Assembly: GCF_030867145.1 (NCBI RefSeq)
Contig: NC_134415.1
Location: forward strand, 13,432,417 to 13,496,416
Length of the DNA stretch: 64,000 bases
Origin: Opisthocomus hoazin
Taxonomy: Eukaryota; Chordata; Aves; Opisthocomiformes; Opisthocomidae
Direction of reading: 5' to 3'
A program made the translations under genes and the position numbers. Below are positions 1 to 62,640 of this stretch, in pieces. Within the stretch, counting starts at the first letter, position 1. The number at the start of each line of letters is the position of its first letter. Under the pieces are notes generated by a model that worked only from the letters and a program-made list of their open reading frames with translations, searched no databases and had not been told where the DNA came from.

Positions 1-876
1 CTGTCACACGCGTTCGGGCACACAACACGGTGTCCTGTTGTGCTCCTCGTTCACTTGCTGCGTCAACTGGTTCTCCTGCATTGATTTGCCTGGGGCCTGC
101 TTTTTTGAGATGGTGAAACGAACTGAGCCAGGCTTCTGTTAATTCCATGTCTTCCACCTCGAAAGCTGTTGGATACAGTTTTAGAGAACTAATGGTGACA
201 AGGCTTTGCTGGTGTGGCATTGTTTAGCTTGTGTGGTGGAGAGAATACTTCAGTGGGTCGGAGAGAGTCACCAAACACCTGGGCGTGTTGCCCGTGCTGC
301 AAATGATTTTGCAGTTCATCTTGTCAGCTTGCTGTTTGTAAAAGTCTGTTTCGGAAGGAGCATCTGCACAAACTCTGCAAGAGATTCTGTGCGTAACAGA
401 ATCTTGAGCACAACAGCTTCCTGCCCCGAGAGAAACAAGCCAAAAGGGAACAAGGCATAATGATGCGTGAAATCTGCGAGAAGGCAACGGACAATAAATA
501 GGGATGTATAAAATCAAGGGAAAGGACAAATGGGAACTTTTACCTGTTACTGGGAAACTTGTGAAAACACCGTTTTTCTTAGATCCCGTCTTCCTAATCC
601 ATGTGTGTAGAGTTGCACTCAGTGCATCGGGTCTGTTCCTGTTCTTGATCTTGTCGATCCCTCTGTGCCACTTGTTGTTGGTGATCTCATAGGCGTCAGA
701 ACAGCAAACGATTCTCCTCTTGCTTAGCTGTGAGATCAAAAAGTCTCCTGAGTGCCATCTTTTAAGGAAAAGCTGTGTAGGAGATTATTGACTGCACACT
801 GATGAAACTTCTGTCAATGTCAAAAACCTTTATGGCTGCTGTGAGTCCATTTTTGTGTTTCTGTCTTTCTTTACAG
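1..876. other. 5' flank or first intron of left AHCTF1 copy
   Basis: There is no recognisable gene. The exon carrying the start codon begins at 877 behind a pyrimidine-rich acceptor, so this is probably first intron or 5' flank. A 171-codon open frame on the minus strand (224-739) is preserved in the right arm (61553-62065, 170 codons) with a 3-bp in-frame indel. It matches no family I know. Confidence 0.5.
224..739 (-). CDS. Unrecognised 171-codon ORF, antisense to AHCTF1 5' region
   Basis: A long open frame starting MISQLSKRRIVCCSDAYEIT. The first 55 residues are charged and protein-like; the rest is cysteine- and serine-rich without clear domains. The right-arm partner differs by loss of one Asn codon in an ACAACA-type repeat and a few substitutions, with no frameshift. 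At about 99% arm identity, conservation of an ORF by chance is easy. It may be a chance frame or an old gene fragment. Confidence 0.2.
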   Translation of the reverse strand: MISQLSKRRIVCCSDAYEITNNKWHRGIDKIKNRNRPDALSATLHTWIRKTGSKKNGVFTSFPVTGKSSHLSFPLILYIPIYCPLPSRRFHASLCLVPFWLVSLGAGSCCAQDSVTHRISCRVCADAPSETDFYKQQADKMNCKIICSTGNTPRCLVTLSDPLKYSLHHTS

Positions 877-882
877 TGAAAA

Positions 883-3800
883 ATGCGAGGCCTAAGAGCT
901 CAGGTAACCAGCAGTCTGCTGCAGTTTCCAGAGGTGACTGTTCAGGCCCTTGGGGAAGATGAGAACACCCTGGATTCTGTGCTGCATGGGAAGTTTTCTG
1001 GAGGTGAGTGTTTTCCTTTGAATTTGGTCTTGGTATGAAGTTGTCGTTGCCTGGAGGTTACCTGAAGCATCGGGTCATGGTATCAGCTGTGTCAGGTTGG
1101 TGTGGTCAAGGTGACTCACCAGGTTTAGAGAGAGCAGAAAAGGTGTTTTATCGATTATAAATGCCAATATTAAAACTTTAGTATAGTTAAACTTTCAAAT
1201 TACAAGCACCTGCACCAGTCTTGTGCTATTAAAAGAATTTCCATAAACATGCGGAGTCAGTGAGCCCTCCTCAATTTCTAATGAAATAAAAGGCAGTTTT
1301 CGCAAAAGTACGAGTGTTGTTTGGGGCCGTTTGCATTTGCACCGTCTCAAGCTCTGCGACCGTGATAGCATCACGGTGCTGATGAGTACGCAGTGCGAGC
1401 TGCTGAAAGTGGCTAAGCAGATGAGGTAGTTGCCTTTCTAGGCGATCTGAAAGTGGAGCTGGGTGCTTGTCGGGATGTCTTGGCTTCTCTTAAGACGAGG
1501 TAGAATCTGTCTACCTGGCTGGAAATGCAGGACTTGAGTTAATACTTCCTTTGAGCTTGAAGGAGTTGAGCGCAACGGAATGTGTAAACATCCCGTGTAG
1601 AAGTGTAAATTTCCTAACACAGTGCCCATTTTAAGGTGTGAAGCCCAAATCCCTGCCAAAGCAGGCATGCGTCAAGTGAAATTAATAAACTAGAAATGAA
1701 TTGGCTTAGAGTTGTTCTGCTTGAAGTACACTGCAAGGCTTGTATTCTCATACGCATCTAGATGACTTCTAGTAATACGAAGCTGCAGGTGGTAGAAAGA
1801 GTATAGATCAATGTATTGTCATCTTTATCCCAGACAGTCAAGTGGAAAATAATAAGGGTGTTGATTTTAAGATGTATTGCTTGAGAATTTCAATGGGTGA
1901 TTTGAAAGAACTGACCGGGATTCGGTAAGGCGGTACTTTTATTGAAGGAAAGTGGCAGTGACTGTGATTTTTTCAGTTGTCTCCAGTCTTCCATTGGAAA
2001 TGTGCTTTAGTCAGCTTCCATTTCTCTTACAGGGAGAAATGGGCTAGCATGGCTGGCGTGTGGTCCTCATCTTGAGGTAGTGAATTCTGTGACAGGAGAG
2101 CGGCGCTCTGCATACTGTTTCAGGGGGGCAAAGAAGCAGCCTCCCACTGTTCGTGCGGTAAAGGAGTTTTCCTGGCAGAAGAGAACTGGACTGCTGGTTG
2201 GGTTGGAAGAAGCAGAGGGAAGTGTTCTCTGTCTGTACGACCTTGGAACATCACGAGTGGTTAAAGCGGTTGTTCTTCCAGGAAAGGTACGTACTTTTTC
2301 AGCAGAGAAAGGAAGCTTTTGTGTTCTTATAAAATCCTGTTTCCGGAAAAGGTTTGGAGCCTTTCTGTGAAGGAGGACTTTTATCTCTCTTGCATTAGCA
2401 TACCATCACTGGAGAGTCTCTGGTCAAGAGAGCTTGGATGTAAAATCTTGGGCTTAACGGTACCATCCTCTTTGAAGTTCCCTGATAGTAAAAGAAGTCT
2501 TCTGGTTGAATTGTAGAGCATGTAGTTACCTAATTCTCCGCTTCCTCAAAAAGGCATTGTAAATGATCTTTTTTTTGGCCAGAGTGAAAAATAAAAAATA
2601 AACCCCACGCTTCCAAGCGACTAGAACCTACATTTCTGAAATGGTTAACTTCTGCCAGAAATGCTGTCTTTAAAATACCTCAGACTTCCATAGCTCTGCT
2701 CTAAATGACTTCGACACATTCCCATGAACCTCAGACTAACTAACTTCTAAGTTGCGAGCAGGAGTAAGGGTAAGCAAAACCAAGCCGACAAAGTTTGCAC
2801 TGGGCCACTGTCCATATGATCTGAATTTATCCTCGAACTCTTACTTCCAAATTAGACATAATACATGTTTTTAATCTGCCCAACTGTTTCTCTGATTTTC
2901 AGACGGATTGTTTTTTCAAGTCAAATGCAGATCTGCTCTGCACATCACTTTCTGCACCTTTTGTCATGGCTGTTATAAGGCTTTAATGAGCACCTTAATT
3001 TTTTAATATTTTAATCCTAATATTTTCTGTGCGGGTGTATGTTCTGCGGACTACAAAGTTGTACAGGTTAACGCTAACTTTGAGCAACCCTGGTCCAAGA
3101 CGTAAAGCCGTTAGTGTATTAATGCAGGGTGTTTATAGTGACTGTATGACTGCCTTTTGGTGCAAGAGTAGATGTGTGGTCATGCAGAGAGTAAAGGAAG
3201 GAGTTTTCAAGGAAATCTGAAACAAAGCCAAGTTGTCTGAGTTACCATAGGTCTTTCTAAAGATTCGATGCTTGTGAGCAAGAGGAAAGGTGAATTGTGT
3301 GGCAGACTGGCAGGGAGTGTAGTCATAGCAAGTGCTGGATCTGGGAGAGGAGATAGCTTTGGGGCTGAGGGCTTTGGTTATTTTTCCCTAGCTGTGCGGC
3401 TAAAAAAAGTGTCTATAAAGCAATGCGCTCCCTTGTGATGCTCACTTCTTTGTTTTCTTTTCAGGTACAACTTTGTTGGTGGTGTAAAGCTCCCTGTTTC
3501 TGTTATGTGGCATTTTGTAAGCAGGCGAAAGGCTAGCCCGTGATCTTTTGTTGTATAGCTTTAGTGCAGGAGTCTTCACGTGCTCGTCTCTCTGCGCTAG
3601 CAGTCAGTGTTGTCCTGGGACGTGTTGCAGGTGCTGACAGGTCTGTCTTCGCTTTGTCCTAAAGCCGCATGCAGAGCGCTTTGCCTGTGCAAGAGCAGTG
3701 TGCACGTCTCCCTTTAGCTGGAGCTGGCTTTTCATCTAACAAGCTGCTGTTCTCTTTGCCATTGCTTTAGGCTGGCTTTTTAAATTTTTGTTCACATTCC

Positions 3801-6800
3801 TAGATGTGCTGGTGTGCATCTAAAACTGCTTCTACTTTATCGGGTGGTTATTTTTGTTCTAAGTGAGGACTAGTGTGCGGTTGACCAAGCCGCTCTCTCG
3901 CTTCAACACTTTCCAGAAGTGTTTCCTTCACATGGAAGTGGTGCGTCTGCCATGCAACTCGGCTGTTGCCTCGTCTGACGTACAGCCATGATTTATCCTA
4001 AAAGCTGTTTGGCAAAGAAGGCATCGATGGTATCACAGAGCTGATGGGCTGTGAGCAGTGGGAGAACTCGACTTAGTTTTGTCCTTCAGTCCCTTCAACA
4101 TGATGAAGTTTCTTGCATGTGACTAATTTTTTCTGTTTTCTTGGAGTTCGTTATTTCTAAGCAGGAAATGGACATTGGTAGGCTGTAATACTAGAATGCA
4201 GCATTGAAGTTGAAGTTAATTCAGTGAAATAACCACAGGAAATCTAGTAAATGGAAGGCAGCAACAGATTTTTGTACAAGCCTCCCGTTCCGTTCCTTCC
4301 CCCCCCCCCCCCATCCCCCTCCTTTTCCTGTGATTGGGAAACAATGCTCTTTTTGAAGTCTTATGATCCTGTATTTACTTTCTTGTTTGTGCCGTGCTAA
4401 TTCTGCCTTCACCTCGGAGTGATTTCTATTTAGCTTGTCAAACAGCTTCACTATTAACTTGTAGTTTTCCTGTAGGTAACTGCTATAGAACCCATCACTA
4501 ATCACGGAGGACCCAGTGTCAGCACTCGGCACCTTCACCAGAGCCTGCGGTGGCTCTTTGGAGTGGCAGCAGTGGCTACAGATGTTGGTCATCTGCTTCT
4601 GGTTGACCTTTGTTTGGATGATTTATCTTGCAAACAGAATGAGCTAGAAGCATCAGGTAAGCCTGCAGTTTTAAAACTTGCGTTTACCAGTAAGACAACG
4701 TGTGTCTTTGCAATAAACAACAGGCATCCCGCTTTGAAGGCAGGAGCGTGCAGCCATTCACGACTGCTGGTTACAGATGGCGGGCTGTCATCGTACAGTC
4801 CTGAACCGATTAAAACGGGAGCGGCTTAACACTCCTTCTAATGCTGTAAGCGCCTCCCTGCTGCCAAGGTCCCTCCGTCAGGATGATTCTTGCCAGTGAG
4901 GTGTAGGAGTTTTACCATGTGAGTCGTGCAGCTGCCTGATAGGCGGTTGTGTCAGAGGTGGCCTATTTCTCGGGAAAGTGCTGCTGCTTCTGTTAATTGA
5001 GTTGGGGCAAATTTTAGGCTTGTTTTTTAAAATAGATCTGACTGCTCAAAAATGGCGCCTTTGGATGAATAATTTGAAATAGCCCCATCAGGAGGCCCGA
5101 ACTCCTGATTTACAGAGTCCAAGAAGAATTTGTCTATGAAGGTTAGACTTTTACCTGGTTTTGAAATAGGAGTGAGAATACCTGTCCGATCGGAGAGTTC
5201 GTCTGTTCTTTGAAGACGTCCAAAAGGGAAGTGGCAAAGAAGTGTTGCATAAGTGGGTATTTTGCCTGGGATGGTAGAATGAGATTCTACGTGTTGTCAC
5301 GTCAGTGTTGAACATGCAATGTAAATGGCATAACACATTCATTTGTTGCGTGGTTCTGTGTGCATAGGTCTAGAAGTTGTCAGTAGAATTCCTGCTGAAG
5401 TTCCACAGAGAAGAGAAGCTGCGACCAGAGAAGGGAGCCATCTCTGTTTCCAACTACAAAATCCTTCAAGATCAGCAATATCAAGCCTGTGCTACATCAG
5501 CAGAAGCAATCAGCTCGTTGTGGGTTTTTCGGATGGCTACCTGTCACTATGGAATATGAAAACTTTGAAGAGGGAGTAAGTAGGCCTTTACCCTTGGCCA
5601 TGCCTGGAGGTGCAGGGGTCTGCATATTTTGCTGAAGGAAGTAGGTTAATGTAAAGAGAATGTTTTCAGGGACTGAGATTCTGAGTATAATCTTGGAATG
5701 CTTAGAAGCCCTCTTCTGAAACTACTAGTGAGTCACACATGGAGTGAGTGGACCGCCTGCTCCCCAGTGGACTAGGACTGTTTTCCTTACTGTGCTTGTG
5801 GATTGTGGGAGTGTGGAAAGCATGCTTCTTTGGGTTACATCAAGCACTTAGGATGCGATAGAGCTGCTTTCTCTAAGACAGGTTGTTCTCTTAGTAGTAT
5901 TCAGGGAAAGCAGGAAAGTTGTGTATTTCGATGAAACAGGTTTTAGAAATGATTTTTCAGAACCAGTTACTGCGATTAGGGCATACATTGAAAGGCTGAA
6001 GTATGTTCACAGGGTGATTGTGGTGATAACACTCTTTAAAGTGCCCAGGATGAAACTAGTGAGACATGAGAAATCAACAGCTGACCTGCTCCTGAAAGTG
6101 TATTCTTTCCAACATTTCCGCCTTGACCGAAATAGGGGATTGACCCTAATGTGAATGAAAGTTTACTTGGAACACATGGAGATGAGAGTCAGGGACTTGT
6201 GAATTTATAAGCAACAGAAAAATGAAGAGATGATTTTAAATGTGCCAAAGAGCAATCTCACTTGAGACATTTGACCCAATTCCGATAGGGATTCACTTTC
6301 GCAAATCTGCAGTGACTCACCGGAAACTATTGGATGCTTAAACAGGCAGTGGAGGAATAATTAGGTGGCAAGAGTAGGTTGTGAAGGTACAGAGGATGTT
6401 CAGAAGTCTGGAAGAAAAATGCTTTACGTAGCCCAAATAAAGCATATAAGGAGCTCTTTTCTGAGGAGATGCTTCTACCCTTCTACAAACAGTTAGGGGC
6501 AGTAGGCTCACCTTTTTTTTTTTTTCTTTCTCATTCTTTTAACCGCATAGGCACCACTCTCAGCTTGAAGGAGGAAGGATTCCTGTCTATGCTGTCACGT
6601 TTCAAGAGCCTGAGAATGATCCTCGCAATCATTGCTACTTGTGGGCTGTTCAGTCTACACAAGAAAGGTGAAGAAAAGCTTAGTACAAGGCACCGTTGTG
6701 TTTTTTTTTCTTAAATATTTCTTCACATACAGTTGATACATGTGCATTTGTTTTGTTTCTTTAGTTGTGCAGGAGATTGTCTCAGGTACAGAAGGTGTTA

Positions 6801-9800
6801 AGCTTACGGTGCAATTTTTACAGGATTGACCAGATGTGAAGGGGAAGGGAAGGGAAGGGAAGGGAAGGGAAGGGAAGGGAAGGGAAGGGAAGGGAAGGGA
6901 AGGGAAGGGAAGGGAAGGGAAGGGAAGGGAAGGGAAGGGAAGGGAAGGGAAGGGAAGGGAAGGGAAGGGAAGGGAAGGGAAGGGAAGGGAAGGGAAGGGA
7001 AGGGGAAGGGAAGGGAAGGGGAAGGGAAGGGAGGGGGAAGGGAAGGGAGGGGAAGGGAGGGGAAGGGAGTGGAAGGGAGGGGAAGGGAAGGGAAGGGAGG
7101 GGAAGGGAAGGGAAGGGAAGGGAAGGGAAGGGAGAGGAAGGGAAGGGAAGGGAGAGGAAGGGAGGGGAGGAAGGGAGAAAGAAAGGGAGAAAGAAAGGGA
7201 GAAAGAAAGAAAGGGAGAAAGGGTGAAAGGGAGAAAGAAAGGGAGAAGGGGAGAAAGGGAGAAAAATCTCTCTCCTTCAGCATCAGCAAGCTATTGAATC
7301 AGCTCGGCTGTTCATAGAGTGACAATCTTTTAAAGTTTGACTTTAAAGTAGTTTTTATCAAGAACTCTGCACTATGAAGAACAAGTTCCAATAATGTTGA
7401 GTCCATGCAAGAGGTTAAGGCCTTCCAATTGCATGGTTAGCATTGGCCCCTGCAGCTGTTAGTGTCAACACTGCCTTCTTCATGTTTTAGTGGCTAAATG
7501 TGACCAATGACCAGGTTTTGGGAAGCAGTGTTTTTCTTTTGAGCAAGAGCCTGCTATGAAGAAAACTGCAGTCTAGACCTAATAAAATGAAAATGAGAAC
7601 TATAAAGCAGCTTTGTAATCAAATGTCATCGTTTATACCTTTTTCAGTGAAGGTGATGTTGTGAGTTTGCATCTGTTGCAGTTAGCATTTGGTGAGAGAA
7701 AACTCCTGGCATCAGGACAAGTCATGTATGAGGTAAGACGTGCATGTATGCGAAAAGACGAAAAGAGCCATTTTCTCTAAGTGAGTAGCCGTTGACGTGT
7801 CAGGGTAAATCTTTACCATCAAAATTCAGAGATGTCTAGCAAGAACAAATAATCTTTTGCTGAGTCTTCTTGGGCATGGCCTTTGTTCTTTCCTAAAATA
7901 CGGTCCTATATCTTTTGGTTTATATTCTTGTTTTTCTTTTGCGCTTTGTTAACTGGAGTTCAGATGAAATGTACCTGCAGTGTCTCTTCAGTGTTGATCG
8001 TGAAAGTTAGTCGCTATATAGGTAGCTCGTTCTACTTTTTGGCTGGGTTACCTGTGACATCTCCTCTTAAAGCCAGCAAGAGAAGTCAAGACGGAACAAC
8101 AGTGGTATGATTTGGTCCAAAGAGGATACATAAATTTTTAGAACTGGCTCCAAAGATGTTGTGTTTAAAATAGAGAGGAGATATCATTTGCAGATGACAC
8201 CAAGCTGAGTGGTACGGTCGAGACACCAGAAGGACAGGATGCCATCCAGAGGGACCTGGACAAGCTGGAGAGGTGGGCCTGTGTGAGCCTCATGGAGTTC
8301 AACAAGGCCGAGTGCAGGGTTCTGCACCTGGGTCGGGGTAATCCCCGGTACCAATACAGGCTGGGAGATGAAAGGATCAAGAGCGGCTCTGCTGAGAGGG
8401 ACTTGGGGGTACTGGTGGACGAGGGGCTGGACATGAGCCGGCAATGTGCACTGGCAGCCCAGGGGGCCAACTGTGTCCTGGGCTGCATCAAGAGAAGCGT
8501 GGCCAGCAGGTCAAGAGAGGTGATTCTACCCCTCTACTCTGCTCTGGTGAGACCTCACCTGGAGTACTGCGTTCAGCTCTGGAGCCCTCAGCACAGGAGG
8601 GACATGGAACCGTTGGAGCGGGTCCAAAGGAGGGCTACAGGAATGATCCGAGGGCTGGAGCACCTCTCCTGTGAGGACAGGCTGAGAGAGTTGGGCTTGT
8701 TCAGCCTGGAGAAGAGAAGGCTGCATGGAGACCTGATTGCAGCCTTTCAGTACTTAAAAGGAGCCTATAGGAAAGATGGGGACAATCTGTTTAGTAGAGA
8801 CAACAGTGACAGGACGAGGGGTAATGGTTTTAAACTAAAACAGGGTAGGTTTAGGCTAGATATAAGGAAGAAATTCTTTACAATGAGGGTGGTGAAACAC
8901 TGGAACGGATTGCCCAGAGAGGTAGTGGAGGCCCCATCCCTGGAAACATTCAAGACCAAGTTGGACGGGGCTCTGAGCAGCCTGATCTAGTTAGTGGTGT
9001 CCCTGCTCGCTGCGGGGGGGTTGGACTAGATGACCTCTAGGGGTCTCTTCCAACCCAAAACTTTCTATGATTCTATGATTTCTATGACATCTCAGCTATC
9101 AAACAATTTGAAGATGCATCTGTGTAACATCTAATTCCATTCAGTAGTATGCTTGAAACTCTTCCGTAATCAGTCAGAGCAATTCTTTCCTCCTGTTTTG
9201 ATACCTTCTCTTGCATATTCTCAGTAGGTATGGAACGAAGTAGGGGCGATTCTTGTATCATATTCCTCTGTTTTTATAGGGACTATGTGTTTTTTTTACT
9301 TTTGGGGATGAGATGAAGTTTTGACCTTGGTCCCTGCATATAGGACAGGTCTTTCCTCATTTGTAAATGTTGCTTTTGAATAGAAAAAGGTTTGGTGTTT
9401 GGAAAAGGTGGTGTTTCTTTAAAAGGCATTGTCTCTCATGGCACCAAGGTGTAAATATCTTCAAGTGATTCTGCAGGTTCTAAATATGGATGTCATCTCT
9501 TTATGGGCATTTTTTTCTGACATAAATATACAGGGCTCTGGAGGCACAGAGCACCCTGACTGGGTTTTTAGTTGTAAAAGGGCTTTCGTTGCAGTGCACT
9601 TCTGCATCTCTTGTAGTGTCCTGTAAGGCCTTTGGCAGGTTGATAGGACGAAGTGCCTTTAATATTTCTTCAGTTTCATTTTTGAACTTCTGCTTTGCTT
9701 TATGCTCTTTTAAAAGTTCTTTGTAAGTACAGTCTTTGCAGTGGCCAAGACAAGACCTTGTAGTGTGGGCTGCTTTGCAAGAAAACCTGGTTGCCTATAG

Positions 9801-26307: not shown

Positions 26308-26316
26308 ACTGTTGGG

Positions 26317-27145
26317 GTAAGCTGGGCTGTAGTCAGTGATTTTTGTATGAATTTCTAGAGTTCATGTAAAGGTTCTGTAGACTGTGGTTTGATCTATGTT
26401 TTATTTCTTTTTAAGTTTGCCAAACCTCTTCCTATAGAGAATTGGATTTGCACATCAGAATGGCAGACTTGAATTTGGTCAACGCAAGGTTATGTTAGAC
26501 CTCCTGTAGCATCACGTGCCTGCAGGAACACATTCATAAAACCCACCAGTGACCTTGGCGGTTGGTTACGTGGGTGTTGCTAGGAGCTGTGTTCCAATTG
26601 TTCCAAATTGTTCCAAATTGCTAGTTCAGCTTCCCGCTCTAGGCAGCTGTTTTCCCACTTAACGGTTTAGTTTTCTGATGGAAACAGAAGAGGGAGGGGA
26701 CAGAAAAGGGCAAGTGGGTACTGCTTTTTTCAAGGATGGCGTGCCCTTGTTCTGTCTTATTCCGCCTGATGAAACCACGCTCCTACGGTCTTTAGTTCCC
26801 CATAGAAGGCAGGAGGGGGTCGGAGAACGGGTAGGGAGAGCTTCTTGTTTCCGGACATGTTTTCTGGTTCCTTCTGGAGAACTGTTTGAGGGCATTTGCC
26901 TCTTGAAAGCTGGGAGAGGGGGCTCTAAAAGCTCATAGGAACAGTGAGTGAGAATGCTTGGGACAGTCTGGTAAGGAATGAAAAAGGAAGCTTATTTATC
27001 CACCTTTTTTGCTTTGATCATATGTACAAAGAAGCCTATAAATAATTCTTTGGCATTGATTTTGTTATTCCACGGGGGTTTTGTTGTTCTCTACTAAATA
27101 CTGTTGGTACTAAAAAATCAGTTTGATATTTCCCTTTCTTTACAG
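26317..27145 (+). other. Collapsed interval where the large ELYS exons are missing (left)
   Basis: In vertebrate ELYS roughly a thousand codons lie between the SFMEEN-type exon and the last exon. Here only 829 bp separate them and I see no ELYS-like coding sequence. The interval contains a short TTCCAAATTG tandem around 26596-26622 and chance ORFs on both strands. The same interval lies at 35283-36111 in the right arm. An internal deletion before the inverted duplication is the simplest explanation. Confidence 0.65.
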
Positions 27146-27403
27146 AACCACAAGAACACAAGGTTCTTGGTCACCTCCAGCCGTGGAAATAAAATTCGTC
27201 TCTCCTTTTGGAAGTCCTGTGGGTGGAACTAAAAGCAAACAGAAAGAAGCTGCAGACACGGCAGAGAAGACTCTACGGAAGAACAAAAAAAGACTGTCTA
27301 ATTTCCCAAAGCCAGTTGTGCGCCGGAAGATGCTGTAACTCTTTTTAAGTTTATAGTGTACACCACTGTTTGTAAAGTCATCAAAATTGTCTGGATAAAT
27401 AAA
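27146..27403 (+). pseudogene. AHCTF1: Orphan last ELYS exon, left copy
   Basis: An acceptor (tttacag) is followed by a frame encoding TQGSWSPPAVEIKFVSPFGS and ending in RRKML, the characteristic ELYS C-terminus. The stop is at 27336-27338 and a polyadenylation signal AATAAA at 27398-27403, with a second at 27588-27593. It needs an incoming phase-2 exon. The preceding exon (ending 26316) is phase 0 and already carries a stop. The large exons normally between them, which encode most of the disordered AT-hook region, are absent from the 0.8 kb gap. It probably serves as 3' UTR. Splicing from exon 24 (ending 23620, phase 2) would be in frame, but that is only a possibility. Confidence 0.75.
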
Positions 27404-34119: not shown

Positions 34120-34122
34120 AAA

Positions 34123-51100: not shown

Positions 51101-54100
51101 TATTGTATATTCCCCACGAGCTTATTTCTGATGGCAAAGAGAAACTCCCTGTCACCACTTAAAGCAGGGCGGCAATAAACTCAGTGGCAGACGCTCTATT
51201 AACACCTCACCCTCCCACCAGAGGAAGGGTAAAGGAGGAAAAGGGAGAGAGACGTACAAATTGAATATGAAAAGTTTTATTAATAACACTAATAATACTA
51301 ATAGTATTAATCATAATTGAAATAATGCAAAATATACAAAACCGATCCTGAGTGTCCCAGACTTGGGAGCTCTACGCTCCATGTCTTCATTACAGAACTG
51401 ACCAAGTTGGAGAAGTCATGCCATTACTGCACCTAAAGCTCTGTCGAGAGGTATTACCTATAGGCACACTGCTACACTGAAAATGCATCCCTCACTAGCA
51501 GCCATGAGAACTGCTGACTGATTAACCATCTCTTTTCAAACCACGGAAGCTCTTACCACCTCCTCCTCTAATCTTGTCAGAAACTAACAGGTGAAATATC
51601 CCTCAGCTCAGCTCCTTCACCAAGCACAGCCAACAGCACAAGGGGAAAACAGAGAGGACGTGCTACGCGCATGGACAATGTCTTTACGATCACAAATTAC
51701 TACAGAGCCAGCCAACTGCTTTGAGATGTACACAAACCCTGGCAGGATTGTGATGCGCCTCTGATACCACCACTTTCTAAGTAAGCATTAACTGAAACAC
51801 TGGCTTTCCAAATACAGGATTCGTTCAGACTGTCTGCCATGCAACGCAGGAATGTGTGTATTGTGGACAAACAGCAGCTCGACCATTCAATGCACTACAT
51901 TTAGCAACTGCTGACATGGTATCAAAAAGGTCTTTGAAAGCAGATCATAAAGACACTGTTAGGCTAATTACTTGAGCACAGACTGACAACAGCCTTGCAG
52001 GCCACAGTTGACGCTCATTTGTGCCATGTGTTCCAGAAGTCCTGTTTGTGACTTATTACCACGATACAAAGTCAAAGATGCCCTGTTTCATAGCCACAAG
52101 TCTGATTCCTGGAATGTAAAGCGCTGCTGTAGTATATTTGGAAGGTGGCTGAAGAACCTGTCTTTTCTCCACAGAGGGCCCGGCTGTTTAGTTCTTCCTT
52201 CCACCACCTTGTAAGATTGGTTCCTGTTGCCATCTTCCTCAGCACTCCTCACAGGGAAGCGGAAACAGCAGGCGAGTAAAATATCTCAAATGCAGAGACT
52301 GGTGCCTCACACCTCCTATCAGCCTGGCAATGTATTACTGGTTGCGCAGTCTGCAGAGGGTTGAAAGTCTTACATTAACCACCCCACAGCTGTCGCCGGT
52401 CACAAACACAAGAACCTAATTTAATCACTTTGGGTGCCTTTCTAAAAGAGCACCAAGGGGAATTTCTAGCAGACACACATTTAAAAGCTGCTGAAACAGA
52501 CACTCGGCAAATCTTGTTCAGGAAAGGAAGATGACCAAGGCAAAGAATTGCCAACTAGGAAAAGGTCCCACATTTTAACATTAAAGTGTCGAGACAGAAT
52601 AAAATACCCACGAGAGGAAGGGCTATAGGCAACCGGGTTTTCTTGCAAAGCAGCCCACACTACAAGGTCTTGTCTTGGCCACTGCAAAGACTGTACTTAC
52701 AAAGAACTTTTAAAAGAGCATAAAGCAAAGCAGAAGTTCAAAAATGAAACTGAAGAAATATTAAAGGCACTTCGTCCTATCAACCTGCCAAAGGCCTTAC
52801 AGGACACTACAAGAGATGCAGAAGTGCACTGCAACGAAAGCCCTTTTACAACTAAAAACCCAGTCAGGGTGCTCTGTGCCTCCAGAGCCCTGTATATTTA
52901 TGTCAGAAAAAAATGCCCATAAAGAGATGACATCCATATTTAGAACCTGCAGAATCACTTGAAGATATTTACACCTTGGTGCCATGAGAGACAATGCCTT
53001 TTAAAGAAACACCACCTTTTCCAAACACCAAACCTTTTTCTATTCAAAAGCAACATTTACAAATGAGGAAAGACCTGTCCTATATGCAGGGACCAAGGTC
53101 AAAACTTCATCTCATCCCCAAAAGTAAAAAAAACACATAGTCCCTATAAAAACAGAGGAATATGATACAAGAATCGCCCCTACTTCGTTCCATACCTACT
53201 GAGAATATGCAAGAGAAGGTATCAAAACAGGAGGAAAGAATTGCTCTGACTGATTACGGAAGAGTTTCAAGCATACTACGGAATGGAATTAGATGTTACA
53301 CAGATGCATCTTCAAATTGTTTGATAGCTGAGATGTCATAGAAATCATAGAATCATAGAAAGTTTTGGGTTGGAAGAGACCCCTAGAGGTCATCTAGTCC
53401 AACCCCCCCGCAGCGAGCAGGGACACTGCTAACTAGATCAGGCTGCTCAGAGCCCCGTCCAACTTGGTCTTGAATGTTTCCAGGGATGGGGCCTCCACTA
53501 CCTCTCTGGGCAATCCGTTCCAGTGTTTCACCACCCTCATTGTAAAGAATTTCTTCCTTATATCTAGCCTAAACCTACCCTGTTTTAGTTTAAAACCATT
53601 ACCCCTCGTCCTGTCACTGTTGTCTCTACTAAACAGATTGTCCCCATCTTTCCTATAGGCTCCTTTTAAGTACTGAAAGGCTGCAATCAGGTCTCCATGC
53701 AGCCTTCTCTTCTCCAGGCTGAACAAGCCCAACTCTCTCAGCCTGTCCTCACAGGAGAGGTGCTCCAGCCCTCGGATCATTCCTGTAGCCCTCCTTTGGA
53801 CCCGCTCCAACGGTTCCATGTCCCTCCTGTGCTGAGGGCTCCAGAGCTGAACGCAGTACTCCAGGTGAGGTCTCACCAGAGCAGAGTAGAGGGGTAGAAT
53901 CACCTCTCTCAACCTGCTGGCCACGCTTCTCTTGATGCAGCCCAGGACACAGTTGGCCCCCTGGGCTGCCAGTGCACATTGCCGGCTCATGTCCAGCCCC
54001 TCGTCCACCAGTACCCCCAAGTCCCTCTCAGCAGAGCCGCTCTTGATCCTTTCATCTCCCAGCCTGTATTGGTACCGGGGATTACCCCGACCCAGGTGCA

Positions 54101-57100
54101 GAACCCTGCACTCGGCCTTGTTGAACTCCATGAGGCTCACACAGGCCCACCTCTCCAGCTTGTCCAGGTCCCTCTGGATGGCATCCTGTCCTTCTGGTGT
54201 CTCGACCGTACCACTCAGCTTGGTGTCATCTGCAAATGATATCTCCTCTCTATTTTAAACACAACATCTTTGGAGCCAGTTCTAAAAATTTATGTATCCT
54301 CTTTGGACCAAATCATACCACTGTTGTTCTGTCTTGACTTCTCTTGCTGGCTTTAAGAGGAGATGTCACAGGTAACCCAGCCAAAAAGTAGAACGAGCTA
54401 CCTATATAGCGACTAACTTTCACGATCAACACTGAAGAGACACTGCAGGTACATTTCATCTGAACTCCAGTTAACAAAGCGCAAAAGAAAAACAAGAATA
54501 TAAACCAAAAGATATAGGACCGTATTTTAGGAAAGAACAAAGGCCATGCCCAAGAAGACTCAGCAAAAGATTATTTGTTCTTGCTAGACATCTCTGAATT
54601 TTGATGGTAAAGATTTACCCTGACACGTCAACGGCTACTCACTTAGTGAAAATGGCTCTTTTCGTCTTTTCGCATACATGCACGTCTTACCTCATACATG
54701 ACTTGTCCTGATGCCAGGAGTTTTCTCTCACCAAATGCTAACTGCAACAGATGCAAACTCACAACATCACCTTCACTGAAAAAGGTATAAACGATGACAT
54801 TTGATTACAAAGCTGCTTTATAGTTCTCATTTTCATTTTATTAGGTCTAGACTGCAGTTTTCTTCATAGCAGGCTCTTGCTCAAAAGAAAAACACTGCTT
54901 CCCAAAACCTGGTCATTGGTCACATTTAGCCACTAAAACATGAAGAAGGCAGTGTTGACACTAACAGCTGCAGGGGCCAATGCTAACCATGCAATTGGAA
55001 GGCCTTAACCTCTTGCATGGACTCAACATTATTGGAACTTGTTCTTCATAGTGCAGAGTTCTTGATAAAAACTACTTTAAAGTCAAACTTTAAAAGATTG
55101 TCACTCTATGAACAGCTGAGCTGATTCAATAGCTTGCTGATGCTGAGGGAGAGAGATTTTTCTCCCTTTCTCCCTTTCTTTCTCCCTTTCCTTCTCCCTT
55201 TCCTTCTCCCTTTCCTTCTCCCTTCCCTTCCCTTCCCTTCCCTTCCCTTCCCTTCCCTTCCCTTCCCTTCCCTTCCCTTCCCCTCCCCTCCCTTCCCTTC
55301 CCTTCCCTTCCCTTCCCTTCCCTTCCCTTCCCTTCCCTTCCCTTCCCTTCCCTTCCCTTCCCTTCCCTTCCCTTCCCTTCCCTTCCCTTCCCTTCCCTTC
55401 CCTTCCCTTCCCTTCCCTTCCCTTCCCTTCCCTTCCCTTCCCTTCCCTTCCCTTCCCCTTCACATCTGGTCAATCCTGTAAAAATTGCACCGTAAGCTTA
55501 ACACCTTCTGTACCTGAGACAATCTCCTGCACAACTAAAGAAACAAAACAAATGCACATGTATCAACTGTATGTGAAGAAATATTTAAGAAAAAAAAACA
55601 CAACGGTGCCTTGTACTAAGCTTTTCTTCACCTTTCTTGTGTAGACTGAACAGCCCACAAGTAGCAATGATTGCGAGGATCATTCTCAGGCTGTTGAAAC
55701 GTGACAGCATAGACAGGAATCCTTCCTCCTTCAAGCTGAGAGTGGTGCCTATGCGGTTAAAAGAATGAGAAAGAAAAAAAAAAAAAGGTGAGCCTACTGC
55801 CCCTAACTGTTTGTAGAAGGGTAGAAGCATCTCCTCAGAAAAGAGCTCCTTATATGCTTTATTTGGGCTACGTAAAACATTTTTCTTCCAGACTTCTGAA
55901 CATCCTCTGTACCTTCACAACCTACTCTTGCCACCTAATTATTCTCCACTGCCTGTTTAAGCATCCAATAGTTTCCGGTGAGTCACTGCAGATTTGCGAA
56001 AGTGAATCCCTATCGGAATTGGGTCAAATGTCTCAAGTGAGATTGCTCTTTGGCACATTTAAAATCATCTCTTCATTTTTCTGTTGCTTATAAATTCACA
56101 AGTCCCTGACTCTCATCTCCATGTGTTCCAAGTAAACTTTCATTCACATTAGGGTCAATCCCCTATTTCGGTCAAGGCGGAAATGTTGGAAAGAATACAC
56201 TTTCAGGAGCAGGTCAGCTGTTGATTTCTCATGTCTCACTAGTTTCATCCTGGGCACTTTAAAGAGTGTTATCACCACAATCACCCTGTGAACATACTTC
56301 AGCCTTTCAATGTATGCCCTAATCGCAGTAACTGGTTCTGAAAAATCATTTCTAAAACCTGTTTCATCGAAATACACAACTTTCCTGCTTTCCCTGAATA
56401 CTACTAAGAGAACAACCTGTCTTAGAGAAAGCAGCTCTATCGCATCCTAAGTGCTTGATGTAACCCAAAGAAGCATGCTTTCCACACTCCCACAATCCAC
56501 AAGCACAGTAAGGAAAACAGTCCTAGTCCACTGGGGAGCAGGTGGTCCACTCACTCCATGTGTGACTCACTAGTAGTTTCAGAAGAGGGCTTCTAAGCAT
56601 TCCAAGATTATACTCAGAATCTCAGTCCCTGAAAACATTCTCTTTACATTAACCTACTTCCTTCAGCAAAAAATGGAGACCCCTGCACCTCCAGGCATGG
56701 CCAAGGGTAAAGGCCTACTTACTCCCTCTTCAAAGTTTTCATATTCCATAGTGACAGGTAGCCATCCGAAAAACCCACAACGAGCTGATTGCTTCTGCTG
56801 ATGTAGCACAGGCTTGATATTGCTGATCCTGAAGGATTTTGTAGTTGGAAACAGAGATGGCTCCCTTCTCTGGTCGCAGCTTCTCTTCTCTGTGGAACTT
56901 CAGCAGGAATTCTACTGACAACTTCTAGACCTATGCACACAGAACCACGCAACAAATGAACGTGTTATGCCATTTACATTGCATGTTCAACACTGACGTG
57001 ACAACACGTAGAATCTCATTCTACCATCCCAGGCAAAATACCCACTTATGCAACACTTCTTTGCCACTTCCCTTTTGGACGTCTTCAAAGAACAGAAGAA

Positions 57101-60100
57101 CTCTCCGACCGGACAGGTATTCTCACTCCTATTCCAAAACCAGGTAAAAGTCTAACCTTCATAGACAAATTCTTCTTGGACTCTGTAAATCAGGAGTTCG
57201 GGCCTCCTGAGAGGGCTATTTCAAATTATTCATCCAAAGGCGCCATTTTTGAGCAGTCAGATCTATTTTAAAAAGCAAGCCTAAAATTTGCCCCAACTCA
57301 ATTAACAGAAGCAGCAGCACTTTCCCGAGAAATAGGCCACCTCTGACACAACCGCCTATCAGGCAGCTGCACGACTCACATGGTAAAACTCCTACACCTC
57401 ACTGGCAAGAATCATCCTGACGGAGGGATCTTGGCAGCAGGGAGGCGCTTACAGCATTAGAAGGAGTGTTAAGCCACTCCCATTTTAATCGGTTCAGGAC
57501 TGTACGATGACAGCCCGCCATCTGTAACCAGCAGTCGTGAATGGCTGCACGCTCCTGCCTTCAAAGCGGGATGCCTGTTGTTTATTGCAAAGACACACGT
57601 TGTCTTACTGGTAAACGCAAGTTTTAAAACTGCAGGCTTACCTGATGCTTCTAGCTCATTCTGATTGCAAGATAAATCATCCAAACAAAGGTCAACCAGA
57701 AGCAGATGACCCACATCTGTAGCCACTGCTGCCACTCCAAAGAGCCACCGCAGGCTCTGGTGAAGGTGCCAAGTGCTGACACTGGGTCCTCCATGATTAG
57801 TGATGGGTTCTATAGCAGTTACCTACAGGAAAACTACAAGTTAATAGTGAAGCTGTTTGACAAGCTAAATAGAAATCACTCCTAGGTGAAGGCAGAATTA
57901 GCACGTCACAAACAAGAAAGTAAATACAGGATCATAAGACTTCAAAAAGAGCATTGTCTCCCAATCACAGCAAAAGGAGGGGGATGGGGAGGGGGGGGAA
58001 CGGAACGGGAGGCCTGTACAAAAATCTGTTGCTGCCTTCCATTTACTAGATTTCCTGTGGTTATTTCACTGAATTAACTTCAACTTCAATGCTGCATTCT
58101 AGTATTACAGCCTACCAATGTCCATTTCCTGCTTAGAAATAACGAACTCCAAGAAAACAGAAAAAATTAGTCACATGCAAGAAACTTCATCATGTTGAAG
58201 GGACTGAAGGACAAAACTAAGTCGAGTTCTCCCACTGCTCACAGCCCATCAGCTCTGTGATACCGTCGATGCCTTCTTTGCCAAACAGCTTTTAGGATAA
58301 ATCGTGGCTGTACGTCAGACGAGCCAGCGGCCGAGTTGCATGGCAGACGCACCACTTCCATGTGAAGGAAACACTTCTGGAAAGTGTTGAAGCGAGAGAG
58401 CGGCTTGGTCAACCGCACACTAGTCCTCACTTAGAACAAAAATAACCACCCGATAAGTGGAAGCAGTTTTAGATGCACACCAGCACATCTAGGAATGTGA
58501 ACAAAAATTTAAAAAGCCAGCCTAAAGCAATGGCAAAGAGAACAGCAGCTTGTTAGATGAAAAGCCAGCTCCAGCTAAAGGGAGACGTGCACACTGCTCT
58601 TGCACAGGCAAAGCGCTCTGCATGCGGCTTTAGGACAAAGCGAAGACAGACCTGTCAGCACCTGCAACACGTCCCAGGACAACACTGACTGCTAGCGCAG
58701 AGAGACGAGCACGTGAAGACTCCTGCACTAAAGCTATACAACAAAAGATCACGGGCTATCCTTTCGCCTGCTTACAAAATGCAACATAACAGAAACAGGG
58801 AGCTTTACACCACCAACAAAGTTGTACCTGAAAAGAAAACAAAGAAGTGAGCATCACAAGGGAGCGCATTGCTTTATAGACACTTTTTTTACCCGCACAG
58901 CTAGGGAAAAATAACCAAAGCCCTCAGCCCCAAAGCTTTCTCCTCTCCCAGATCCAGCACTTGCTATGACTACACTCCCTGCCAGTCTGCCACACAATTC
59001 ACCTTTCCTCTTGCTCACAAGCATCGAATCTTTAGAAAGACCTATGGTAACTCAGACAACTTGGCTTTGTTTCAGATTTCCTTGAAAACTCCTTCCTTTA
59101 CTCTCTGCATGACCACACATCTACTCTTGCACCAAAAGGCAGTCATACAGTCACTATAAACACCCTGCATTAATACACTAACGGCTTTACGTCTTGGACC
59201 AGGGTTGCTCAAAGTTAGCGTTAACCTGTACAACTTTGTAGTCCGCAGAACATACACCCGCACAGAAAATATTAAGATTAAAATATTAAAAAATTAAGGT
59301 GCTCATTAAAGCCTTATAACAGCCATGACAAAAGGTGCAGAAAGTGATGTGCAGAGCAGATCTGCATTTGACTTGAAAAAACAATCCGTCTGAAAATCAG
59401 AGAAACAGTTGGGCAGATTAAAAACATGTATTATGTCTAATTTGGAAGTAAGAGTTCAAGGATAAATTCAGATCATATGGACAGTGGCCCAGTGCAAACT
59501 TTGTCGGCTTGGTTTTGCTTACCCTTACTCCTACTCGCAACTTAGAAGTTAGTTAGTCTGAGGTTCATGGGAATGTGTCGAAGTCATTTAGAGCAGAGCT
59601 ATGGAAGTCTGAGGTATTTTAAAGACAGCATTTCTGGCAGAAGTTAACCATTTCAGAAATGTAGGTTCTAGTCGCTTGGAAGCGTGGGGTTTATTTTTTA
59701 TTTTTCACTCTGGCCAAAAAAAAGATCATTTACAATGCCTTTTTGAGGAAGCGGAGAATTAGGTAACTACATGCTCTACAATTCAACCAGAAGACTTCTT
59801 TTACTATCAGGGAACTTCAAAGAGGATGGTACTGTTAAGCCCAAGATTTTACATCCAAGCTCTCTTGACCAGAGACTCTCCAGTGATGGTATGCTAATGC
59901 AAGAGAGATAAAAGTCCTCCTTCACAGAAAGGCTCCAAACCTTTTCCGGAAACAGGATTTTATAAGAACACAAAAGCTTCCTTTCTCTGCTGAAAAAGTA
60001 CGTACCTTTCCTGGAAGAACAACCGCTTTAACCACTCGTGATGTTCCAAGGTCGTACAGACAGAGAACACTTCCCTCTGCTTCTTCCAGCCCAACCAGCA

Positions 60101-61409
60101 GTCCAGTTCTCTTCTGCCAGGAAAACTCCTTTACTGCACGAACAGTGGGAGGCTGCTTCTTTGCCCCCCTGAAACAGTATGCAGAGCGCCGCTCTCCTGT
60201 CACAGAATTCACTACCTCAAGATGAGGACCACACGCCAGCCATGCTAGCCCATTTCTCCCTGTAAGAGAAATGGAAGCTGACTAAAGCACATTTCCAATG
60301 GAAGACTGGAGACAACTGAAAAAATCACAGTCACTGCCCCTTTCCTTCAATAAAAGTACCGCCTTACCGAATCCCGGTCAGTTCTTTCAAATCACCCATT
60401 GAAATTCTCAAGCAATACATCTTAAAATCAACACCCTTATTATTTTCCACTTGACTGTCTGGGATAAAGATGACAATACATTGATCTATACTCTTTCTAC
60501 CACCTGCAGCTTCGTATTACTAGAAGTCATCTAGATGCGTATGAGAATACAAGCCTTGCAGTGTACTTCAAGCAGAACAACTCTAAGCCAATTCATTTCT
60601 AGTTTATTAATTTCACTTGACGCATGCCTGCTTTGGCAGGGATTTGGGCTTCATACATTAAAATGGGCACTGTGTTAGGAAATTTACACTTCTACACGGG
60701 ATGTTTACACATTCCGTTGCGCTCAACTCCTTCAAGCTCAAAGGGAGTATTAACTCAAGTCCTGCATTTCCAGCCAGGTAGACAGATTCTACCTCGTCTT
60801 AAGAGAAGCCAAGACATCCCGACAAGCACCCAGCTCCACTTTCAGATCGCCTAGAAAGGCAACTACCTCATCTGCTTAGCCACTTTCAGCAGCTCGCACT
60901 GCGTACTCATCAGCACCGTGATGCTATCACGGTCGCAGAGCTTGAGACGGTGCAAATGCAAACGGCCCCAAACAACACTCGTACTTTTGCGAAAACTGCC
61001 TTTTATTTCATTAGAAATTGAGGAGGGCTCACTGACTCCGCATGTTTATGGAAATTCTTTTAATAGCACAAGACTGGTGCAGGTGCTTGTAATTTGAAAG
61101 TTTAACTATACTAAAGTTTTAATATTGGCATTTATAATCGACAAAACACCATTTCTGCTCTCTCTAAACCTGGTGAGTCACCTTGACCGCACCAACCTGA
61201 CACAGCTGATACCATGACCCGATGCTTCAGGTAACCTCCAGGCAATGACAACTTCATACCAAGACCAAATTCAAAGGAAAACACTCACCTCCAGAAAACT
61301 TCCCGTGCAGCACAGAATCCAGGGTGTTCTCATCTTCCCCAAGGGCCTGAACAGTCACCTCTGGAAACTGCAGCAGACTGCTGGTTACCTGAGCTGTTAG
61401 GCCTCGCAT
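36121..61409 (-). CDS. AHCTF1: Truncated ELYS nucleoporin, right copy (27 coding exons)
   Basis: Mirror copy of the left gene with the same exon structure, frame and stop. Coding exons in transcript order: 61289-61409, 60006-60259, 57642-57822, 56723-56930, 55632-55748, 54691-54775, 50846-50996, 49469-49601, 49199-49380, 48668-48729, 47596-47724, 45726-45816, 45548-45637, 45245-45385, 44364-44468, 43488-43581, 43185-43308, 43016-43072, 41865-42011, 40928-41115, 40612-40756, 40389-40520, 39043-39190, 38808-38958, 37723-37829, 36876-37060, 36121-36309. I found no frameshift or stop where I compared it with the left copy. Right-copy residues that differ include Thr after MRGL (left Arg), Asn in SCNQNE (left Lys), Gly in NPSGSA (left Arg), Gln in TFQQPE (left Glu), Thr in GQTSNT (left Ile), Asp in VDREE (left His), Asp-Pro in QMPDPL (left Glu-Ser), Arg in IKRW (left His) and Lys in DIKHS (left Met). 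As in the left copy, the frame ends before the C-terminal half of ELYS. Confidence 0.88.
36737..36842 (-). repeat. 106-bp direct repeat, copy B (right arm)
   Basis: Mirror of left copy B, just downstream of exon 26 of the right AHCTF1 copy. Confidence 0.85.
39581..39686 (-). repeat. 106-bp direct repeat, copy A (right arm)
   Basis: Mirror of left copy A, between exons 22 and 23 of the right AHCTF1 copy. Confidence 0.85.
50006..50503 (-). mobile_element. Old CR1 LINE fragment, right arm
   Basis: Mirror of the decayed CR1 fragment in the left arm, with a few small differences (for example a changed stretch around 50150). It has no open frame of note. Confidence 0.85.
53336..54248 (-). mobile_element. 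CR1 LINE, 5'-truncated, right arm
   Basis: Mirror copy of the left-arm CR1, with the same truncation point and 3' end. The remnant frame (53433-54140) is still open, with one Ser-to-Leu difference from the left. Its presence in both arms shows that insertion preceded the inverted duplication. Confidence 0.95.
55160..55460 (-). repeat. (AAGGG)n purine microsatellite, right arm
   Basis: The same array in reverse complement (CCCTT pentamers), about 124 bp shorter than in the left arm and with a simpler variant tail. Its longest pure pentamer run is on the side nearer the right gene's start. The length change fits ordinary repeat slippage after the arms formed. Confidence 0.98.
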
Positions 61410-62640
61410 TTTTCACTGTAAAGAAAGAAAGAAACACAAAAATGGACTCACAGCAGCCATAAAGGTTTTTGACATTGACAGAAGTTTCATCAGTGTGCAG
61501 TCAATAATCTCCTACACAGCTTTTCCTTAAAAGATGGCACTCAGGAGACTTTTTGATCTCACAGCTAAGCAAGAGGAGAATCGTTTGCTGTTCTGACGCC
61601 TATGAGATCACCAACAAGTGGCACAGAGGGATCGACAAGATCAAGAACAGGAACAGACCCAATGCACTGAGTGCAACTCTACACACATGGATTAGGAAGA
61701 CGGGATCTAAGAAAAACGGTGTTTTCACAAGTTTCCCAGTAACAGGTAAAAGTTCCCATTTGTCCTTTCCCTTGATTTTATACATCCCTATTTATTGTCC
61801 GTTGCCTTCTCGCAGATTTCACGCATCATTATGCCTTGTTCCCTTTTGGCTTGTTTCTCTCGGGGCAGGAAGCTGTTGTGCTCAAGATTCTGTTACGCAT
61901 AGAATCTCTTGCAGAGTTTGTGCAGATGCTCCTTCCGAAACAGACTTTTACAGACAGCAAGCTGACAAGATGAACTGCAAAGTCATTTGCAGCACGGGCA
62001 ACACGCCCAGGTGTTTGGTGACTCTCTCCGACCCACTGAAGTATTCTCTCCACCACACAAGCTAAACAATGCCACACCAGCAAAGCCTTGTCACCATTAG
62101 TTCTCTAAAACTGTATCCAACAGCTTTCGAGGTGGAAGACATGGAATTAACAGAAGCCTGGCTCAGTTCGTTTCATCATCTCAAAAAAGCAGGCCCCAGG
62201 CAAATCAATGCAGGAGAACCAGTTGACGCAGCAAGTGAACGAGGAGCACAACAGGACACCGTGTTGTGTGCCCGAACGCGTGTGACAGCTGCCAGCCGAG
62301 ACCGATACGATCATCCACGCTGATGGGCCGAAGAAGGCACCTGAACGACCACGTTCAGCCAGGCACCCCAAACGGCGTTCAGCATTCCCGACAGAATTAA
62401 GCCCAAAATTGCCCACAATCTGTCCAAACGTGGCCAGGAAGCAGATATCGGACCCGAAAGGCTGGCACCATGCCTCTTGCTGCTGGCAGAAGCTCCAGAC
62501 CTGGGGTCACGGTTTATGCAGGAGGAAATCCAGCACTTTTGTTTAACAAGTCAGCAGCTTTGCTGCGTGATGCATGCTTCACGCAAAACTGAAGAGAAGC
62601 CCTCAACACGCCCTGCATTCCTGTAAAGCTGTGCTCTCCC
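61410..62640. other. 5' flank of right AHCTF1 copy
   Basis: Includes the six non-coding bases of the start-codon exon (61410-61415) and the probable first intron. It aligns to the left arm up to 62288; beyond that no partner is visible. Apart from the antisense 170-codon frame I see no gene. Confidence 0.5.
61553..62065 (+). CDS. Unrecognised 170-codon ORF, right-arm partner
   Basis: Mirror of the left 171-codon frame, one codon shorter, with several amino-acid changes. It lies upstream of the right AHCTF1 start on the opposite strand. It has no recognised domain, no obvious promoter and no family assignment. Confidence 0.2.
   Translation: MISQLSKRRIVCCSDAYEITNKWHRGIDKIKNRNRPNALSATLHTWIRKTGSKKNGVFTSFPVTGKSSHLSFPLILYIPIYCPLPSRRFHASLCLVPFWLVSLGAGSCCAQDSVTHRISCRVCADAPSETDFYRQQADKMNCKVICSTGNTPRCLVTLSDPLKYSLHHTS

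Follow-up and report, generated by a model that had tools for sequence, protein, structure and literature searches.

A palindrome with truncated AHCTF1 copies around an apparent broken provirus in the hoatzin genome

Arms and spacer of the palindrome

The window is a stretch of 64,000 nucleotides of the hoatzin (Opisthocomus hoazin) contig NC_134415.1. It contains two inverted arms, each with a truncated copy of AHCTF1, the gene of the nucleoporin ELYS, and a spacer between them:

1..29205, + strand: palindrome arm 1, outer end left of the window
33181..62288, - strand: palindrome arm 2, which is arm 1 in reverse complement; identity outside the microsatellite 99.45%
29206..33180, no strand: spacer of 3,975 bp, single-copy middle of an apparent broken provirus (self-comparison, weak Pfam matches)
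6842..7264, + strand: (GGGAA)n microsatellite of arm 1, longer than that of arm 2 (55168-55457) by 124 bp
34122..34207, - strand: 42-bp tandem duplication, in arm 2 only
8169..8987, + strand: LINE reverse-transcriptase-like piece in intron 6, 273 open codons, mirrored at 53436-54254

In a self-megablast, 1-29205 and 62288-33181 were found to be inverted copies, in three minus-strand blocks with 98.7-99.5% identity. The alignment of both arms has 29,064 paired columns with 166 substitutions and 13 indels. Setting aside the microsatellite region (6830-7270) leaves 156 substitutions, which corresponds to an identity of 99.45% and an arm-to-arm divergence of 0.55%. Three indels in the microsatellite (68, 40 and 16 bp), adding up to 124 bp, are the biggest together with the 42-bp tandem duplication, and the remaining nine are 1-5 bp each. 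The locus is therefore a palindrome in the sense of inverted arms that are each 10 kb or longer, are >99% identical and flank a short spacer, and judged by length and identity, a match of 29 kb cannot be chance. These 29 kb are a lower bound, as the window start cuts arm 1 and the outer palindrome end lies further left. The segment 62289-64000, which has no blastn match in the rest of the window, may also be part of an arm. The spacer has no match to the arms and is free of Ns, since the window consists of A, C, G and T alone. There were no Rfam or tRNA matches in the window. The LINE-like piece, which we take to be CR1, differs by one residue between the arms and had no match in the Pfam search.

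The differences are unevenly distributed, with 41 in the inner 14.2 kb (2.9/kb) and 115 in the outer 14.6 kb (7.9/kb; p = 5e-9), and the longest substitution-free stretch is 2.1 kb. Arm-to-arm gene conversion is a possible reason for the lower divergence of the inner half; haplotypes or unequal mutation are also compatible with it.

The original prediction described bird DNA with a giant near-identical palindrome, arms of at least 29 kb, a spacer of about 4 kb and collinear genes, repeats and introns. Megablast and alignment agree with this, and 24 ELYS exons, the LINE-like piece and the microsatellite are present in both arms. The identity of the gene (AHCTF1) and the provirus at the centre go beyond what was named there.

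Truncated AHCTF1 genes and the central provirus

Each arm carries one AHCTF1 copy, reduced to the first 24 coding exons or about 1,079 amino acids, and the two copies are convergent around a provirus remnant of about 4 kb:

883..23620, + strand: ELYS-like copy 1 (truncated AHCTF1), 24 coding exons, 1078 open codons
38808..61409, - strand: ELYS-like copy 2, 24 matching exons with equal GT/AG edges; protein the same as hoatzin P0002 over 1078 residues
23622..23624, + strand: TAA terminating the 1079-aa form, just inside intron 24, identical in arm 2
23729..23734, + strand: candidate poly(A) signal within the intron, AATAAA with a T/G-rich stretch after it, identical in arm 2
25367..25561, + strand: out-of-order relic of coding sequence, corresponding to residues 1459-1523 of full-length AHCTF1, mirrored at 36867-37061
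26119..26316, + strand: relic exon corresponding to residues 1179-1246 of the full-length protein, in both arms with an in-frame TAG, mirrored at 36112-36309
27144..27338, + strand: last coding exon with its stop, corresponding to residues 2215-2278 of the full-length protein, mirrored at 35090-35284

GT follows each of the 24 exons and AG precedes exons 2-24 in both arms, and the 3,236 coding bases are without stop or frameshift in either. A profile search detected the beta-propeller (Pfam: PF16687, 7.2e-46) and the ELYS domain (Pfam: PF13934, 3.6e-08), which ruled out HPS3 and TGFBRAP1 as candidates for the gene. The copies are collinear with the full-length proteins of Calonectris, Gallus and Struthio up to about residue 1081, beyond which both arms alike lack the remainder or have it in a different order. 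Full-length residues 1524-2214 were not found in the arms and other C-terminal pieces are scrambled. The C-terminal AT-hook/chromatin-binding half is thus deleted and scrambled in both copies; the AT-hook of human ELYS is given as residues 1980-1989 in PMC4920428. In-frame stops after exon 24 were dropped as gene damage, being intronic, while the TAG in the relic exon at 26119 is genuine.

Because the gene is damaged, we infer that the AHCTF1 in the arms is an extra copy. A full-length hoatzin AHCTF1 is absent among the 120 matches listed of 776 and the 120 listed of 737. The hoatzin ELYS-like protein cluster has eight member sequences at 90%, which hints at more ELYS-like copies, although isoforms may be counted.

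Four of the ten provirus pieces tried had Pfam matches, all below the curated cut-offs, and the other six had no retroviral match in Pfam:

28448..33181, - strand: apparent broken provirus, from these weak matches
28448-28783, - strand: env piece (TLV_coat, 0.0067, weak)
28925-30061, - strand: env by position alone
30330-30596, - strand: integrase (rve, 0.00023, weak)
31762-32241, - strand: reverse transcriptase (RVT_1, 0.0079, weak)
32924-33181, - strand: protease (gag-asp_proteas, 0.0017, weak)

The putative protease, reverse transcriptase, integrase and env pieces stand in proviral order, as in a gammaretrovirus-like provirus, and both arms share the env end, up to position 29205. Neither gag nor a 5' LTR was seen. 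A single broken provirus, as the weak matches suggest, seems to make up the spacer together with the inner ends of the arms and to contain both breakpoints, which makes the truncation and the insertion older than the inverted duplication.

ELYS-like copies in other birds and the state of the short form

Among the matches listed there are many ELYS-like records in other bird species, short ones included. Four of these species have listed models of 1078-1079 aa, and the ends of the Aptenodytes and Pithys models align with the final Arg of the hoatzin copy. FastTree gave a weakly supported group (0.83) of the copies from Porphyrio, gulls and auk, Suliformes, hoatzin and penguins. One ancient short paralogue was ruled out by the C20 model and an AU test, which put the copies with their own lineages. 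As the AU test on 15 rows rejected a single origin of the short forms, AHCTF1 seems to duplicate recurrently in birds. We found no paper on the hoatzin palindrome or on ELYS-like duplicates.

Compared to the Calonectris full-length protein, the N-terminal part of the hoatzin copy is 88.0% identical and the relic exon (1179-1242) 64.5%, while 24 other full-length birds have 89.6-96.0% and 87.5-98.4%, respectively. Decay is not clear in the piece 1459-1523, with 67.7% identity (61.5-86.2% in birds), or in the last exon, with 87.5% (mean of the birds 89.2%). The far lower divergence of the N-terminal part than of the relic exon suggests some constraint on it. At sites conserved in full-length birds the truncated copy has 63 changes, compared to 8-59 among 23 full-length birds themselves, so its acceleration is mild at most. 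Between the arms there are 17 nonsynonymous and 12 synonymous coding differences, a non-significant constraint (p = 0.15), and differences are more frequent in coding than in noncoding sequence (29/3236 vs 127/25387, p = 0.007; outside CpG p = 0.064). An expected-stop calculation (0.107 branch; 6.6 stops expected, 0 seen) was rejected as proof of constraint, because part of this branch may predate the duplication.

It is quite possible, if somewhat doubtful, that the copies are a dead pseudogene pair, unexpressed debris of a segmental duplication in which only the palindrome formation is notable; this is compatible with the other readings. The loss of the C-terminal half, the TAG in the relic exon and the lack of significant constraint between the arms all fit, and zero stops tell little, with a chance of 0.32 among 29 changes. 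However, 1078 open codons and the exon edges are intact in both arms, the N-terminal part is much less diverged than the relic exon, and other birds have models of the same length, two with the same end.

More speculatively, and rather improbably, AHCTF1 could be a recurrent target of genetic conflict in birds, with truncated multicopy ELYS duplicates arising in independent lineages, keeping the pore half and losing the chromatin half. At the pore or kinetochore, the short proteins would then vie with the full-length form and bias chromosome transmission, like the truncated RanGAP duplicate in Drosophila, or suppress such bias, and the hoatzin palindrome would be one such short unit, doubled.

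Origin of the palindrome and comparison with known systems

The palindrome is probably genuine and arose by a fairly recent inverted segmental duplication on a large chromosome of the hoatzin, probably an autosome; a recent rearrangement was among the origins considered in the original prediction. Less likely, it is a false inverted duplication, in which a chimeric join inside the provirus placed two haplotypes of a single ELYS-like locus in inverted order. The arm divergence falls within the heterozygosity that PMC9516828 gives for three other species (0.22-0.95%), so a misjoin of two haplotypes at the provirus would give a similar picture. The earlier caution about an assembly artefact was apt. 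The uneven difference density also suits haplotypes, and no microhomology is visible at the junction. On the other side, though not decisive, the arms are longer than the false palindromes of 7-17 kb that the paper describes for VGP assemblies, and the window has no N gap, whereas false duplications are marked by gaps between copies. The eight-member hoatzin cluster and the many ELYS-like records in other birds speak against it as well, again not decisively.

The arm-2 protein is the same, over 1078 residues, as a hoatzin protein named "ELYS-like" on a contig of 132,848,825 bp. Because of this match and given general chromosome sizes, the palindrome is likely on a large autosome rather than the W, and the host chromosome is probably not the Z. 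Among the matches listed, Larus, Theristicus and Pithys each have full-length and short ELYS copies on one and the same chromosome-size contig. Germline-restricted chromosomes are, to our knowledge, confined to songbirds, and the hoatzin belongs to the Opisthocomiformes. A W- or Z-linked ampliconic palindrome or a germline-restricted chromosome, with arms homogenised by gene conversion, is very improbable: some bird W chromosomes are rich in palindromes (38 of 15.2-345.5 kb on the duck W; PMC7787181), but the 132.8-Mb contig, the shared contigs of the three birds and the hoatzin not being a songbird speak against these homes, which had been suggested earlier and are unsupported, and our literature search found AHCTF1 linked neither with a germline-restricted chromosome nor with the W chromosome and bird.

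For the favoured inverted duplication we propose the following order. AHCTF1 would have been copied as DNA, introns included. The sequence after exon 24 was lost or became scrambled, so that the half with the beta-propeller and the helices remained. A retrovirus-like provirus, as the weak matches suggest, lay downstream on the opposite strand. Two breaks in it would have been joined inverted, perhaps via sister-chromatid fusion or fold-back copying. The arms have since diverged to 0.55%, with fewer differences in the inner half, and arm-to-arm conversion is a possible contributor. The predicted 1,079-aa product would end by read-through into intron 24, with the poly(A) signal 105 bp downstream, and, judging from human ELYS 1-1101, it may localise to the nuclear envelope and not to mitotic chromosomes.

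The order is thus truncation, provirus insertion and inverted duplication, with the two breakpoints inside one apparent provirus, in a bird palindrome that probably lies outside the sex chromosomes, the usual setting of such structures. Separate lineages of birds have apparently duplicated AHCTF1, a nuclear-pore and kinetochore gene, again and again, and existing genomes allow a direct check of this.

False duplications in long-read assemblies are also palindromic or duplicated, with similar divergence, but the hoatzin palindrome is longer than the read-length false palindromes described in PMC9516828 and has no gap. With full-length AHCTF1 the hoatzin copies share exon order and sequence for residues 1 to about 1081; they differ in the deleted or scrambled AT-hook/chromatin half and in the frame ending in intron 24. 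Drosophila Segregation Distorter, a truncated RanGAP duplicate, is likewise a truncated duplicate of a nuclear-pore/transport gene, and nuclear-transport genes duplicate recurrently in Drosophila (PMC8645118). Such Drosophila duplicates are mostly RNA-mediated, whereas the ELYS-like copy is DNA-based, concerns a different protein and is known from sequence alone. The ampliconic palindromes of the human Y and duck W likewise have large inverted arms, a short spacer and high arm identity, and those of the human Y also bear genes. The hoatzin palindrome differs in being probably autosomal and in its arm identity of 99.45%, compared to >99.9% on the human Y (PMC3723533).

Palindrome arms and putative central provirus

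Comparison of the window with itself, together with an alignment of the arms, confirmed the original prediction of inverted, near-identical arms around a spacer of about 4 kb:

1-29205, arm 1 (self-megablast)
29206-33180, spacer, present once in the window
33181-62288, arm 2, reverse complement of arm 1 (self-megablast)

Arm 1 continues past the window start, which makes 29 kb the minimum arm length. Megablast joins the arms in three blocks (98.7-99.5% identical), and their end-to-end alignment has 29,064 paired columns with 166 substitutions and 13 indels. Without the (GGGAA)n tract the arms are 99.45% identical, with 156 substitutions (110 transitions, 46 transversions). The palindrome edges are abrupt and, on the readable side, without microhomology. 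A 107-bp direct repeat lies inside arm 1 (22740-22846 and 25585-25691, 92.5% identical).

Between 28448 and 33181, ten ORF pieces on the minus strand were tested against Pfam. Four matched retroviral env (TLV_coat), integrase core, reverse transcriptase and aspartyl protease, weakly and below the Pfam cut-offs, and stand in proviral order; the other six gave no match or unrelated weak matches. We lean towards a gammaretrovirus-like provirus, of which neither gag nor the 5' end was seen at the palindrome centre. The env end is common to both arms and the remainder to the protease is found only in the spacer, thus both palindrome edges would lie within one provirus. Both arms share this putative provirus and the damage to the C-terminal exons of AHCTF1, the gene for the nucleoporin ELYS; provirus and damage are therefore older than the inverted duplication.

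Arm differences are denser in the outer 14.6 kb, with 115, than in the inner 14.2 kb, with 41 (p = 5e-9); this can be read as gene conversion toward the centre or, alternatively, as haplotype differences. A false palindrome, with haplotypes misjoined at the provirus, is the less likely reading. For VGP assemblies, PMC9516828 describes false palindromes 7-17 kb long, and also gaps between false copies; the arms here are longer and the window is free of gaps (0 Ns).

A LINE piece, which we take to be CR1 and which looks young, has 273 open codons in both arms with one residue different (8169-8987, plus strand; 53436-54254, minus strand). A relative lies at 12277-12407 (68% identity over 131 bp).

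Truncated AHCTF1 in both arms

ELYS domains were matched in three of the ten ORFs tried:

2011-2367, ELYS beta-propeller (PF16687, E 7e-46)
5334-5576, ELYS beta-propeller (PF16687, E 7e-28)
21657-21884, ELYS domain (PF13934, E 3.6e-08)

Frame translations searched against solved structures placed human ELYS residues 1 to ~1092 collinearly along the arm, and also gave two pieces of the C-terminal half. The gene model built from these matches has, in both arms, 24 exons and 3,236 coding bases without stop or frameshift, GT after all 24 exons and AG before exons 2-24. It agrees with three full-length bird AHCTF1 proteins (Calonectris, Gallus, Struthio). In Calonectris numbering, both arms carry residues 3-1081 in order and retain the last exon (2215-2278); residues 1082-1178, 1247-1458 and 1524-2214 were not found in either arm, and piece 1459-1523 precedes piece 1179-1246 in both. 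The final Arg of the annotated hoatzin protein comes from read-through past exon 24 into the intron.

23622-23624, TAA ending the read-through frame, in the intron after exon 24
23729, AATAAA and T/G-rich stretch, identical in both arms
26119-26316, relic exon, in-frame TAG in both arms

The C-terminal coding relics at 25367-26322 lie on the same strand in scrambled order, a sign of a rearrangement older than the palindrome. At 62289-63000, GC reaches 0.54 and CpG observed/expected 0.65; the arm-2 gene may have its 5' end here, and the counterpart would then lie left of the window.

The coding copies of the two arms differ at 29 bases (17 nonsynonymous, 12 synonymous, no stop), a nonsynonymous share that is not significantly low (p = 0.15). 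Difference density is higher in coding (0.90%) than in noncoding sequence (0.50%; p = 0.007, outside CpG p = 0.064). Among the 16 differing residues, eight are derived in arm 1 and six in arm 2, and at two neither arm has the full-length consensus. Against full-length Calonectris AHCTF1, the N-terminal part is 88.0% identical (89.6-96.0% in 24 other, hand-chosen full-length birds) and relic exon 1179-1242 64.5% (87.5-98.4%), a contrast in sequence identity suggesting that the N-terminal part is kept by selection. Piece 1459-1523 (67.7%; 61.5-86.2%) and the last exon (87.5%; bird mean 89.2%) are without clear decay, so the decay test for constraint is mixed.

Short ELYS-like copies in other birds

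Short ELYS-like records among the matches listed (120 of 201); some of the members counted may be isoforms or come from related species
Aptenodytes, 1079 aa, 10 members
Larus, 1079 aa, 63 members
Phalacrocorax carbo, 1079 aa, 4 members; partial record, 1025 aa, 40 members
Morus bassanus, 1335 aa, 27 members
Rissa, 1276 aa, 16 members
Porphyrio, 1393 aa, 9 members
Pithys, 1078 aa, 1 member

In the alignment, the hoatzin, Aptenodytes and Pithys models share the final Arg, and those of Larus and P. carbo are equal in length with a different end. A 44-row tree (42 of the 273 proteins retrieved and the two hoatzin arms, with choice and short or full-length labels made by hand) requires nine changes of the short label, at least seven by starred branches. 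In Suliformes, gulls and suboscines, the short copies adjoin their own lineage's full-length copies, the Porphyrio copy adjoins a finfoot, and the hoatzin copy groups with penguins (SH-aLRT 98).

One clade for the 15 fast short rows of 21 (hoatzin with both arms, gulls, cormorants, gannet, Porphyrio and suboscines, penguins left out) was rejected (lnL 420 lower, p-AU 4e-59), the group being defined after tree inspection and the branches being long. This rejection, and the placing of short copies next to full-length ones from the same lineage, suggest that AHCTF1 duplicates recurrently in Neoaves; in such a tree test, conversion between a short copy and the local full-length gene would mimic multiple origins.

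Three penguin and stork ELYS-like models (P0003, P0006, P0210) include a kinesin motor domain (PF00225), perhaps because gene models were fused or a neighbouring gene was included. The razorbill and cormorant short copies P0038, P0049 and P0052 are highly divergent and carry 187-218 changes at positions conserved among full-length bird proteins.

Searches combining AHCTF1 with germline-restricted chromosome, with W chromosome and bird, or with birds and copy number, and ELYS-like with bird, found no paper in the library searched; judged by title, none of the AHCTF1 and chicken matches listed concerns bird ELYS-like copies. The recurrent truncated ELYS copies are of more interest than the palindrome.

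Comparison with known nuclear pore and transport proteins

Human ELYS 1-1101 retained nuclear envelope accumulation, with a raised cytoplasmic signal and none detected on mitotic chromosomes, according to PMC4920428. The hoatzin product is almost the same piece and, if made, should by analogy behave likewise; it could compete with full-length ELYS. In Drosophila, PMC8645118 describes recurrent, fast evolving nuclear-transport duplicates, and Segregation Distorter as a truncated tandem RanGAP duplicate. It found few such duplicates among other flies and none elsewhere among insects. The parallel between the Drosophila duplicates and the hoatzin ELYS copies is one of analogy only.
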